Positions 3,803 to 8,134 of a stretch of DNA of 64,000 nucleotides are shown here, piece by piece (position 1 is the first letter of the stretch; each line of letters begins with the position of its first letter). This stretch comes from Bartonella sp. M0177 (GTDB lineage Bacteria; Pseudomonadota; Alphaproteobacteria; Rhizobiales; Rhizobiaceae), in NCBI RefSeq assembly GCF_016102285.1, contig NZ_JACFOY010000001.1:434001-498000 (forward strand), read 5' to 3'. The notes under the pieces were generated by a model that ran no database searches, was not told the origin of the DNA, and saw only the letters and a program-made list of their open reading frames with translations. A program made the translations under genes and the position numbers.

Positions 3803-3890
3803 GATATATTGATACCTACCCAATATTATGAGGTATTGATATATCAAAAAAATATCATATAAATTACGCTTGTCAAGTGATATATTAAAG
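3803..3890. promoter_or_regulatory. Divergent promoter with repeated GATATAT operator motifs
   Basis: Between the leftward deaminase operon and the rightward GntR gene lies a perfect 12-bp palindrome TTGATATATCAA (3836-3847). GATATAT recurs at about 3803 and 3879 (AGTGATATATTA), and ATACCT/AGGTAT form a looser inverted pair around 3811-3836. Spaced copies of a short palindrome between a GntR gene and its divergent target are typical of FadR-subfamily operators. No footprint data exist here; the assignment is inference from position and symmetry. Confidence 0.5.
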
Positions 3891-3896
3891 GTAGAT

Positions 3897-4544
3897 ATGA
3901 AAAATATGAAAGTAATGGCAGTCAATGAAAGTCAGGCGGACATAGCTTATAGAAGTCTGGAACGCATGATTGTTACATTGGCTCTCGAGCCGGGCATGGT
4001 GGTCAATGAACGTGCACTGATCGACGCAACCGGAATGGGGCGCACTCCTGTCAGGGAAGCTATACAGCGGCTGGCGTGGGAAGGTTTTTTTGAAATTCGC
4101 CCCCGTTCAGGGGTGCGGGTTGCCAATCTCGAACCACAAGACTTTGGTCGTGTGCTTGACGTACGTCAGGGGATAGAAGTTCTGCTTGCACGGGATGCCG
4201 CGCGTTTTGCTGGCGCCGTTGACATCGAACGAATGAAAATGGCGGCAGAGAATTTGAAAAAGTCGGCTGAAGAAAATGACCCTTATAACTTTCTGGATGC
4301 GGACAAGCTTTTCGATGAAACATTGGGCAAAGCCGCAGGCAATATATTTGCAGCTCGGGTTGTCGAACCTTTGCAAACCCATTCCAGACGTTTCTGGTTC
4401 CGTCTCTACCGCGGACAGGAAGCTATTATAAACTCTGCCAATGCACATATTTCACTGATTGAAGGGATTGTCAGCGGTAAGCCGGATGTAGCTGGCAATA
4501 GAGCAATGAAACTGATGGAACATTTACGAAAAATGGTCCCGTGA
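3897..4544 (+). CDS. GntR-family regulator (FadR/FCD type) of the hydroxyproline genes
   Basis: 215 residues. An N-terminal winged helix with GMVVNERALIDATGMGRTPVREAIQRL is followed by a wing ending RPRSGVRVA. The helical C-terminal ligand domain is FCD-like (DADKLFDETLGKAAGN; later NAHISLIEGIVSGKPD). The ATG at 3897 is chosen because AAAGG precedes it; a TTG at 3870 gives nine more residues without a clear ribosome site. Its position divergent from the deaminase-oxidase-epimerase operon and upstream of the hydroxyproline-type ABC operon suggests it senses a hydroxyproline catabolite. The gene ends in a tandem repeat carrying extra stop codons. Confidence 0.8.
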   Translation: MKNMKVMAVNESQADIAYRSLERMIVTLALEPGMVVNERALIDATGMGRTPVREAIQRLAWEGFFEIRPRSGVRVANLEPQDFGRVLDVRQGIEVLLARDAARFAGAVDIERMKMAAENLKKSAEENDPYNFLDADKLFDETLGKAAGNIFAARVVEPLQTHSRRFWFRLYRGQEAIINSANAHISLIEGIVSGKPDVAGNRAMKLMEHLRKMVP

Positions 4545-4578
4545 TTGCCAGACGATTTTGATTGCCAGACTATTTTGA
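4542..4578 (+). repeat. 17-bp tandem repeat carrying the GntR stop codon, stops in three frames
   Basis: Two units TGATTGCCAGACNATTT (4542-4558 and 4559-4575) followed by a third TGA at 4576. The first TGA is the gene's own stop. Because the unit is 17 bp, the three TGAs fall in three different reading frames. A similar design follows the next gene at 6118. Confidence 0.8.
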
Positions 4579-5307
4579 TGCTTAAATCACGCCTCTTATA
4601 AAAATCTTATGAGCACCGATATAGGCCAAGCGCTGATCCAAGCCAAATGTAAGTGAGGCCGATCCCGTCTTCCTTTTCTTTCGCCGGTTCCGTTTCTTAT
4701 CAATTGATAAAAAAGGGGAGCAGTCGCTGACTTTCTCCCCTGTCATTGAAGAGAGACGACACATTTTCAAAATTTACTGCCCTTTGTTCCATTTCGTCGT
4801 CAAAAACGGGAGCGCAATTCAAAAAAATTTCCGCTTTGATACTATTTGACTTCTATGATGATACGTCCCCACGCCCTTAAAAACTGTGTGGTTTGTAAAC
4901 TCTTCCTGCTAACGCCACTTTGATATATTTTTCCCAAAAATCGTCTTTTCGAAGCGGAAAAATTCATTTCATTTTTTTTACAAACAATCTGCAAACGGAA
5001 TGTTCACTCCACGAGTAATATCAGCGTAACAGTCTGTTTCTATTGTAAAATTCAATGGTAAATGGTGATTTGTTATTGTTATTTTTTTGCTTTGAAACAA
5101 AACAAAAAATTGCGTTTTTACACAAGTTGAAAATTCTTGGTTGCACTTTAAAAACAACTGTGATTTTATAGAGATATATCAGTTATAGATCAACAGACAA
5201 AACTATATAACATTAATTGGGAACAACCATCATCTGAAATGGTCCGTCTGGAAGTCTTAATTTGATAGCGAGCGCTAAGTGGGCGATGACAAAATGGGAG
5301 CATAGAC
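4579..5307. other. Intergenic stretch upstream of the hydroxyproline ABC operon
   Basis: About 730 bases with no credible gene; the only long frame on the minus strand (4582-4770) has no family resemblance. A perfect 14-bp palindrome TTATCAATTGATAA lies at 4697-4710. The last 400 bases are strongly AT-rich with long T and A runs, as expected for a promoter and leader of the downstream operon. The binding protein's ribosome site is GGGAG just before 5308. Confidence 0.5.
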
Positions 5308-6120
5308 ATGAAAAACATCACACGCATTTCCGCTATGGGTTTAGCTTTGGCTACCGGTTTCACATGTGAGGCTTTGGCAGATAAAGTCGACGACATTATC
5401 AGTGCCGGAACGTTACGTTGTGCCGTAACGCTTGATTTTGCTCCCATGGGGTCACGTGATGCAAATAATCAACCGATCGGTTTTGATGTTGATTATTGTA
5501 ATGATTTGGGCAAAGCCCTCGGCGTTAAAACCGAGATTGTGGAAACGCCTTTTCCTGATCGGGTGCCTGCTTTAATGTCGGATCGCGCCGATGTTGTTAT
5601 CGCTTCGACATCGGACACACTTGAAAGAGCGAAAGTCGTCGGTTTTTCCATACCTTATATGGTCAACCGGATGATCGTGCTCACAAGAAAGAATACAGGT
5701 ATCTCTTCTTATGAGGATTTGAAGGGTAAGAAACTCGGTGATACCGCTAGCACTTATGAAGAGGGAAAACTCAAAGCCGACATTGAAAAATGGGGTGGTG
5801 GCAGCTATAGCTCCTACCAATCACAAAACGATACAATTCTTGCTGTCGCACAAGGGCATATTGATGCAACTGTCTTGACCGAAAGCGTTGCGCAACTTGC
5901 TATCAATTCAGGTAATTATCCCGATCTCGTTATAACCGGTGTAGCGCCTTATATTCCGGACTATTACGCCATTGCGACAAAACGTGACGAATACGGCTTC
6001 ATCAATTATCTTGACCTGTTTGTTCACCAGCAAGTACGCACCGGTCGTTATGCCGAGCTTTATAAAAAGTGGTTCAAGAGTGAACCTGTCGATCTGACAA
6101 TACCGCTCGTCTATCGTTGA
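5308..6120 (+). CDS. Polar amino-acid ABC transporter, substrate-binding protein
   Basis: 270 residues. A signal peptide runs to about ALA-DK (residue 24), followed by a mature SBP_bac_3 domain: ISAGTLRCAVTLDFAPMG, GFDVDYCNDLGKALG, ADVVIASTSDTLERAKVVGFSIPY and a C-terminal YKKWFKSEPVD. It is a periplasmic receptor of the PAAT family that binds an amino acid and delivers it to the membrane permeases encoded downstream. Linkage to aconitase X and the epimerase genes suggests a hydroxylated proline as ligand. The last codons form the start of a 19-bp tandem repeat that continues past the stop. Confidence 0.85.
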   Translation: MKNITRISAMGLALATGFTCEALADKVDDIISAGTLRCAVTLDFAPMGSRDANNQPIGFDVDYCNDLGKALGVKTEIVETPFPDRVPALMSDRADVVIASTSDTLERAKVVGFSIPYMVNRMIVLTRKNTGISSYEDLKGKKLGDTASTYEEGKLKADIEKWGGGSYSSYQSQNDTILAVAQGHIDATVLTESVAQLAINSGNYPDLVITGVAPYIPDYYAIATKRDEYGFINYLDLFVHQQVRTGRYAELYKKWFKSEPVDLTIPLVYR

Positions 6121-6196
6121 ACTGCCAGTCTATCGTTGAACTGCCAGTCTATCGTTGAACTGTTAGTCTATTGATAAACGGTTAGTCTATCGCTGA
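6118..6196 (+). repeat. Four 19-bp tandem repeats, each beginning with a stop codon
   Basis: Units start at 6118, 6137, 6156 and 6175, and a further TGA stands at 6194. The consensus is TGAACTGCCAGTCTATCGT; the third and fourth units have drifted (TGAACTGTTAGTCTATTGA and TAAACGGTTAGTCTATCGC). The first TGA is the stop of the binding protein. A 19-bp period shifts frame by one each time, so stops appear in all three frames. Confidence 0.85.
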
Positions 6197-6211
6197 TCGA
6201 AACGCGAAAAA

Positions 6212-6235
6212 GGGCGAGTGGTCAAACACTCGTCC
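6212..6235 (+). promoter_or_regulatory. Intercistronic hairpin between binding protein and aconitase X
   Basis: GGGCGAGTG (6212-6220) pairs with CACTCGTCC (6227-6235) with one G-U pair and loop GTCAAA. No T run follows, so it is more likely an mRNA-stabilising or processing structure than a full terminator. Such hairpins after a binding-protein gene commonly keep that protein more abundant than the downstream membrane parts. Confidence 0.45.
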
Positions 6236-6319
6236 GGAAATAATCAATGAAATTTTGTGAATGAAGAGAATTGATGGGGCTTCTCATCTTTACTCGGGAT
6301 TACTGTCCAGGACATTCTG

Positions 6320-8134
6320 ATGCAAGGATCACTCCAATATCCAGACCCGACTTTTATTTCGGGAACAACCTATATTGATGGGGGTGCTTGTGGTGAGGTT
6401 CTCTATACAGAAACGCCATTAAGTTTTTGGGGCGGGATAGATCCTCGGACAGGGAAAGTGATTGATAATCATCATCCGCTTTCAGGCCAATCTATATCGG
6501 GCAAGATATTTGTTTTGCCATCCGGGCGTGGTTCATGTACGGGGAGCTCTATTGTTCTGGAACTGCTTCTTAACGGTAAAGCACCTGCGGCACTTATTCT
6601 CTCTGAAATGGATAGTATATTATTGGCTGGCGTTCTCGTTGCCAAAATTTTCTTCGGCTATTCTCTTCCGGTAATGGTGGTTCAAAAGGCAAAGTTCCAA
6701 CGCATTGCCGCAATGGAACGGGTCAAGCTTTGCCATGATGGATTGATGGCAGCCGGAGAGGCTGATGAGGAAAATGGTCATCCCGAAGAACTTTCGCTTA
6801 CAGAATTTCCGTCACTTGATCTGACATCTTATGACGAAGAATTGCTTTCGGGAAAACATGGCGAAGCTGCCCGACTTGCCATGACAGTTATTTGTAAAAT
6901 GGCTGTTTTTCAAAATGCAAAATCTCTCATCAATGTGCAACAAGCACATATTGACGCCTGTATTTATACCGGCAAAGGCGCGCTCGCTTTTTCGGAAAAG
7001 CTGAAAATGCTTGATGCCAGAGTGGCCGTTCCGACAACGCTGAATGCTATTTCAATTGATCTTCAAAATAGAAGCCGTCAGCCGGTTCCAGAAAAGATTG
7101 CCGTTCCGGCGAAATGTCTTGCCGAAAATTATTTGGCAATCGGAGCCGAAGAAAGCTTCACTTGTGCTCCCTATCTGCTTTGTTCCGCCCCGTTGAAAGG
7201 GCAGGAAATCGGTTGGGCAGAATCGAATGCAGTGGTTTTTGCCAATAGTATTATCGGGGCTCATAGCCAAAAAAATCCGGACTTTATGGATGCTTGTATT
7301 GCAATTACCGGACGCGCACCGAAGACAGGGTGCCATATAAAAGCCAACAGGATGCCAACCATCCGAATTATTGTTGAAAAGCCGGACGTTATTGATGACT
7401 CTTTCTATCCTTTGCTTGGCTACCAGATAGGGCTGATTTCGGGTTCTCATATCCCTTTGATCAACGGTTTATCCGGACTTCATCCAAATCGGGATAATTT
7501 GAAAGCAATGTCTGCGGCATTCGCCACAACATCTGCAGCTCCGATGTTTCATATTGAAGGTATAACGGCAGAAATTTCGGATAATCACGATTGGCTTGAT
7601 CTTGATTTGGAAACTTTTCGCATCGGGCGGGAAGAGCTATTAGAAGCATGGCATGTTCTGAACGGGAATGCGGGCAATAAAAATGCCGATAATCAACCGG
7701 CATATGACAAAATTGATCTTGTAGCACTCGGCAATCCCCATTTTTCGCTCGAAGAAGCACTTCTCCTTACGAAACTTTGTCAAAACAAAACCAGATCTCG
7801 CAATACAGGCCTTTACATTACTATGGGTAGGCATTGTTTATCAGAACTTCAAAAGCATCAATCTTTCCAAATTCTCAAAGATTTTGGTACCACAATCATA
7901 ACAGATACATGTTGGTGCATGATTGGTGCGCCAATTATCAAGAATAATCATAAAACTATTCTTACAAATTCAGGGAAATATGCCCATTACGGGGCAGGAT
8001 TGACAAAATGCACTATGCGTTTTTCCGGTCTTGCCAATTGCGTTCAAGCGGCAGTCGCAGGAAAATTTGAAGTAAAACCACCGTATTGGCTTACGGGTCA
8101 TGGAAACGAAAGTAAAAGCCATGTTCAATTATAA
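6320..8134 (+). CDS. acnX: Fused aconitase X, probable cis-3-hydroxy-L-proline dehydratase
   Basis: 604 residues in one chain. The N-terminal swivelling domain (about 1-140) carries VLPSGRGSCTGSS (65-77) and SEMDSILLAGVLVAK. The large AcnX catalytic domain follows (about 180-585), with IDACIYTGKGALAFSEKL, VPTTLNAISIDL, SIIGAHSQKNPDFMDACIAITGRAP and ITDTCWCMIGAPI near the end. Cysteines suited to an iron-sulfur centre or metal are retained. In the characterised fused (type I) AcnX enzymes the reaction is dehydration of cis-3-hydroxy-L-proline to 1-pyrroline-2-carboxylate. Its place between a binding protein and two permeases is a strong functional link. In many genomes the two domains are separate genes. 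Confidence 0.8.
   Translation: MQGSLQYPDPTFISGTTYIDGGACGEVLYTETPLSFWGGIDPRTGKVIDNHHPLSGQSISGKIFVLPSGRGSCTGSSIVLELLLNGKAPAALILSEMDSILLAGVLVAKIFFGYSLPVMVVQKAKFQRIAAMERVKLCHDGLMAAGEADEENGHPEELSLTEFPSLDLTSYDEELLSGKHGEAARLAMTVICKMAVFQNAKSLINVQQAHIDACIYTGKGALAFSEKLKMLDARVAVPTTLNAISIDLQNRSRQPVPEKIAVPAKCLAENYLAIGAEESFTCAPYLLCSAPLKGQEIGWAESNAVVFANSIIGAHSQKNPDFMDACIAITGRAPKTGCHIKANRMPTIRIIVEKPDVIDDSFYPLLGYQIGLISGSHIPLINGLSGLHPNRDNLKAMSAAFATTSAAPMFHIEGITAEISDNHDWLDLDLETFRIGREELLEAWHVLNGNAGNKNADNQPAYDKIDLVALGNPHFSLEEALLLTKLCQNKTRSRNTGLYITMGRHCLSELQKHQSFQILKDFGTTIITDTCWCMIGAPIIKNNHKTILTNSGKYAHYGAGLTKCTMRFSGLANCVQAAVAGKFEVKPPYWLTGHGNESKSHVQL

Follow-up and report, generated by a model that had tools for sequence, protein, structure and literature searches.

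The 19-bp tandem array at the end of a solute-binding protein gene in this Bartonella genome is, in all probability, a variable-number tandem repeat (VNTR), and the stop codons that it places in all three reading frames are an incidental product of ordinary repeat expansion. The array consists of a single unit repeated head to tail, and the number of units varies between close relatives.

The window analysed is a stretch of 64,000 nt (G000:C1:434001-498000) from a genome of 2.62 Mb in three contigs, and the features described lie on its + strand unless noted otherwise. The array (6109-6196) overlaps the 3' end of a gene for a family-3 solute-binding protein of 270 aa (5308-6120; Pfam SBP_bac_3, E 2e-32), which is followed in the operon by an aconitase X gene, acnX (6320-8134; Pfam AcnX and AcnX_swivel_put). 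Open reading frames (ORFs) and Pfam assignments place two permease genes and an ATPase gene 3' of aconitase X. Upstream of the binding-protein gene, they identify a GntR-family regulator gene with an FCD domain (3870-4544; Pfam GntR and FCD) and, further to the left, proline-racemase, DHDPS-family and FAD-oxidoreductase genes. Judging by the known roles of these families, the gene set around the array probably serves hydroxyproline use, and honey bees are presumably the home of the window's Bartonella clade.

The array was delimited by TRF, a repeat search and comparison of orthologs. TRF assigns it a period of 19, 4.6 copies and 86% matches, and its score of 113 is the highest TRF score in the window. 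Stops stand at 6118 (the natural stop), 6137, 6156, 6175 (TAA) and 6194, exactly where the original prediction had placed them. The prediction had also made the stop the first triplet of the unit, which does not hold: the repeat opens at 6109, 9 nt inside the coding sequence, with the last three codons (GTC TAT CGT TGA). The stop thus belongs to the copied stretch without opening it, and where the unit is taken to begin is a choice. Units 1 and 2 are identical, unit 3 carries two base differences, and the divergence that had been ascribed to the later units in general is clear in units 4 and 5 only; the identity of the first two units and near-identity of the third reflect recent expansion. 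As a repeat, the array exceeds chance, because when the flanks were shuffled in five rounds, none of 380 gene stops was spanned by a tandem duplication. The RNA structure of the array was no better than that of shuffled sequences (z -0.39; 64 of 200 as stable), and a search for known RNA families over 4400-6500 gave none near its gathering score; two matches were weak and of the kind expected by chance (E 0.16 and 4). Within its genome, the unit GTCTATCGTTGAACTG matched the array alone at fewer than three mismatches; at three mismatches it matched 13 places, compared with 11 for the reversed control. A dispersed intergenic repeat family of the REP or TAACTGA-like kind was accordingly rejected.

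To place the array among its relatives, orthologs of the binding-protein gene were sought by protein search over 71 Bartonella genomes. Some related binding protein was found in each of the 71, and orthologs with 97-100% protein identity were found in five, the window's genome included. The number of stop-bearing units is 5 in the window's genome (G000), 4 in G045, 3 each in G003 and G062, and 2 in G044. Copy number within a species is compared between two genomes only, G000 and G045, the latter labelled as the same species; their genes are 98% identical and their arrays differ by one unit. Loss of the stops in close relatives had been named as a sign of chance duplication, and the comparison bears this out by half: whole units are absent, while the units present keep their stop. 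Within the array, 96 of 494 pairwise column comparisons show a difference (19%, a figure that depends on the aligner's gap placement), compared with 5-15% at the gene's third codon positions. Outside Bartonella, no array (TRF score of at least 40) lay over the stop in 78 homologous loci, mostly from Pseudomonas, and the next long ORF followed there at a median distance of 10 nt and a maximum of 256 nt (76 loci), compared with 199 nt in the window. The lack of arrays and the short gaps in these homologs indicate that the array-bearing spacer is a feature of this group of Bartonella.

Both the duplication and the difference in copy number are thus directly observed, and a mechanism may be proposed for them. 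The starting point would have been the 12-bp sequence GTCTATCGTTGA, comprising the last three codons and the stop, a sequence that the relative with the fewest units carries in two copies separated by 7 bp. If such direct repeats misaligned during replication, 19-bp units could have accumulated beyond the stop, where additional sequence would be tolerated. Each copy has a stop because the copied stretch holds one, and since 19 is not a multiple of three, the frame shifts with every unit, so that stops in all frames arise by arithmetic. The direct repeats make slippage the probable mechanism, and the array itself is probably neutral. In three sampled genomes, arrays of this kind are also found at other stops and elsewhere in non-coding DNA, and stops hold no more of them than expected. 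Some observations weigh against the VNTR reading. Across the five genomes, TGA or TAA is retained in each of the 12 later units, an outcome compatible with a neutral model although not predicted by it. Furthermore, in a survey of gene ends, short duplications were commoner across stops (12) than inside genes (1, 1 and 3 at three offsets) and twice as common as 50 nt downstream (6).

The retention of stops, together with their occupation of all three frames, is what favours a termination-security element selected to catch read-through or frameshifted ribosomes, a proposal of the original prediction that we now consider very improbable. The array is also dense in stops, with 8 stop triplets in 79 nt, a number reached by 4.2% of 380 gene ends; these ends, like those of the larger gene-end survey and of the array-placement counts given below, come from a crude longest-ORF caller (at least 100 aa) and not from annotation. 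Against selection, the period itself delays the in-frame stop: with a period of 19, a unit stop recurs in the gene's own frame only three units on, at 6175, and an in-frame TGA stands just ahead of it at 6172, 54 nt past the natural stop. The distance from the natural stop to the next one in frame is 54 nt in G000, 27 in G045, 84 in G003, 27 in G062 and 84 in G044, and over the 380 gene ends the median is 45 nt, with 58% having one within 54 nt. In G000, every frame has met a stop by 54 nt, which is equally true of 54 of the 380 gene ends (14%). G044 has two unit stops only, and arrays showed no excess on stops (19 of 103 non-coding arrays, 21.2 expected). Retention also fits the absence of selection: nine independent changes were counted in the 12-bp core, two of them TGA to TAA, and at nine changes all stops would be kept with P 0.10-0.14 (0.08-0.18 over 8-10 changes), so that the 12 retained stops are suggestive of selection at most. 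Under the fail-safe hypothesis of additional stop codons (PMC6764699), as passages of that survey present it, in-frame stops lie close behind the primary stop; the present array resembles this in having stops behind the primary stop and differs in that the frame shifts with each unit. The in-frame stops found here lie at 27-84 nt, in differing places among the relatives, and the three sampled genomes and the window show no enrichment of arrays at stops. According to the same passages, Ho and Hurst found in-frame extra stops to be scarce in eubacteria, with no selection for extra stops there (PMC6764699).

A mutational process aimed at gene ends, for example breaks where transcription meets replication, could instead duplicate sequence at stops, a reading that we regard as improbable. 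The neighbouring gene end lends it support. The original prediction had reported a similar 17-bp array behind the adjacent GntR gene, and TRF confirms it (4542-4579, at the GntR stop; 2.2 copies, score 69), so that two arrays stand at neighbouring gene ends of one window. Their units are alike, sharing a TGCCAG.CTAT core (shuffle P 0.006, post hoc), and the similarity was matched by none of 383 other gene ends. The 17-bp repeat is present in two copies in G000 and G045 and in one copy in G003, G062 and G044. Local duplication, as originally suggested, is therefore well borne out at both sites, by the graded unit numbers of the 19-bp array and by a GntR repeat doubled in the window's species only. 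Common descent of the two units, or their membership in a dispersed repeat, was rejected: the P value is post hoc only, and near matches of the units lay inside ORFs at all 11 loci examined, drawn from 16 and 63 places listed. Looser GntR-type patterns outnumbered their reversed controls in the genome, by 63 to 29 and 32 to 9, an excess for which codon usage is our guess.

A process special to gene ends found no support in a survey of 400 kb each of G000, G003 and G014 plus the window, covering 1014 gene ends, in which arrays were defined by a TRF score of at least 50 and strict duplications as 8-40 bp spanning the stop. Of 151 arrays, 48 lay wholly inside ORFs, and among the 103 others the 19 touching a stop did not exceed the 21.2 that random placement would give when ORF interiors are excluded. 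Observed and expected numbers were 4 and 3.8 in the G000 sample, 5 and 3.5 in G003, 8 and 13.0 in G014, and 2 and 1.0 in the window; excluding G014, which has several long arrays, the count is 11 against 8.2. One of the long G014 arrays (L185:18031-20000; period 411, 4.8 copies) reaches the end of the stretch taken and is perhaps a repetitive surface protein gene. An enrichment obtained with coding-blind placement (1.9 expected, 6 of 38 seen) was discarded, as correction for the scarcity of arrays inside genes raises the expectation to 4.8. Strict duplications crossed the stop at 12 of the 1014 ends, compared with 1, 1 and 3 at the coding offsets -25, -50 and -100 nt, which favours a process at gene ends; downstream, they numbered 10, 6, 4, 5 and 3 at +25, +50, +100, +150 and +200 nt. 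The 10 duplications at +25 nt imply that the contrast is one between coding and non-coding sequence, as purifying selection would give. Excluding G014, duplications crossed the stop at 9 of 704 ends and 5 occurred at +25 nt, an excess that is at most small and beyond what this sample can settle. A first, smaller test found duplications at 5 of 380 stops, compared with 1, 1, 0, 3 and 0 at five offsets and none in five shuffles. Periods not divisible by three account for 8 of the 12 duplications across stops and for 22 of the 33 periods tested.

The units might also be regulatory sites or spacers, acting either as protein-binding iterons or through a stop-to-hairpin spacer length that tunes the mRNA, which is extremely improbable. 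A conserved hairpin does stand 16 nt past the last unit, and its distance from the stop varies with unit number. Nevertheless, nowhere in the region is conservation lower than in the array, and two units are enough in G044. Operator iterons in particular were rejected, given that three relatives (G003, G062 and G044) have lost the ACTG-C-CAGT dyad of the unit.

The hairpin itself (6212-6235), which lies outside the array, has nine pairs and a folding energy of -17 kcal/mol (z -5.9), and none of 200 shuffles was as stable. Every pair is kept in all five genomes, a single A-U/G-U exchange included; each of the five operon-bearing genomes has the hairpin once, and the other 66 lack it. It forms the first part of a conserved stretch, and the 61-bp block at 6215-6275 shows no difference in 610 pairwise comparisons over 61 columns in the five orthologous loci. 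The block sits between the diverged array and a more variable stretch. On the + strand, the hairpin has no U-run, and no intrinsic terminator was listed for 6121-6320; a terminator-like site on the - strand (6232-6215) is the hairpin read backwards. The hairpin and block together (6212-6275) probably constitute an intercistronic element that functions as RNA or DNA, and they make a better candidate for function, and a better lead on operon regulation, than the array. Operons with selective RNA processing and stabilization (SRPS), as described in parts of the report on them (PMC8219983), offer a parallel: there, too, the first gene of an ABC-transporter operon has a stable stem-loop on its 3' side that no U-run follows, and the present hairpin is likewise stable and intercistronic. 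By this analogy, it may be of the stabilising stem-loop type (PMC8219983); the likeness concerns the neighbouring hairpin and not the array, and an effect on stability is a candidate one. Within 6261-6322, an ATG at 6261, at the end of the block, opens a 19-codon ORF. In G000, G045 and G003, the TGA of this ORF shares bases with the acnX start (TGATG); in G062 and G044, the equivalent ATG reads in phase into AcnX. The arrangement could give translational coupling or an N-terminus that varies.

As a VNTR, the array has counterparts among bacterial VNTRs and minisatellites such as the Bartonella henselae MLVA loci, which, as presented in parts of the study concerned, share short head-to-tail units whose number varies between close genomes (PMC2687025). 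The present locus lies in another Bartonella lineage and is not known to have served as a marker. A published parallel for the stops is the set of TAACTGA direct repeats of Beggiatoaceae, which, in the sections of the report that describe them, likewise have a period not divisible by three and stops in all three frames (PMC4679880). The same sections describe a dispersed 7-mer family with 169 sets in one genome, mostly before start codons; unlike it, the 19-bp unit forms no other array in its genome. The TAACTGA repeats overlap the stop of the upstream gene in 13 cases, and their position at ORF ends was read by those authors as a consequence of the stops (PMC4679880). The present locus is mostly of value as a corrective: any stop-containing period not divisible by three fills all frames arithmetically, and such a pattern alone is therefore no sign of selection.

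For the organism, one functional consequence of the VNTR can be envisaged, although we consider it very doubtful: copy number could act as a dial, each 19-nt unit separating the stop from the conserved hairpin and adding stops in other frames. If so, the reach of terminating or slipping ribosomes to the hairpin and the acnX leader would change with unit number, and the ratio of binding protein to downstream protein would differ between strains. VNTRs are used to type Bartonella henselae, according to parts of the MLVA study (PMC2687025), and the 19-bp locus could similarly be a strain marker within its own Bartonella lineage.
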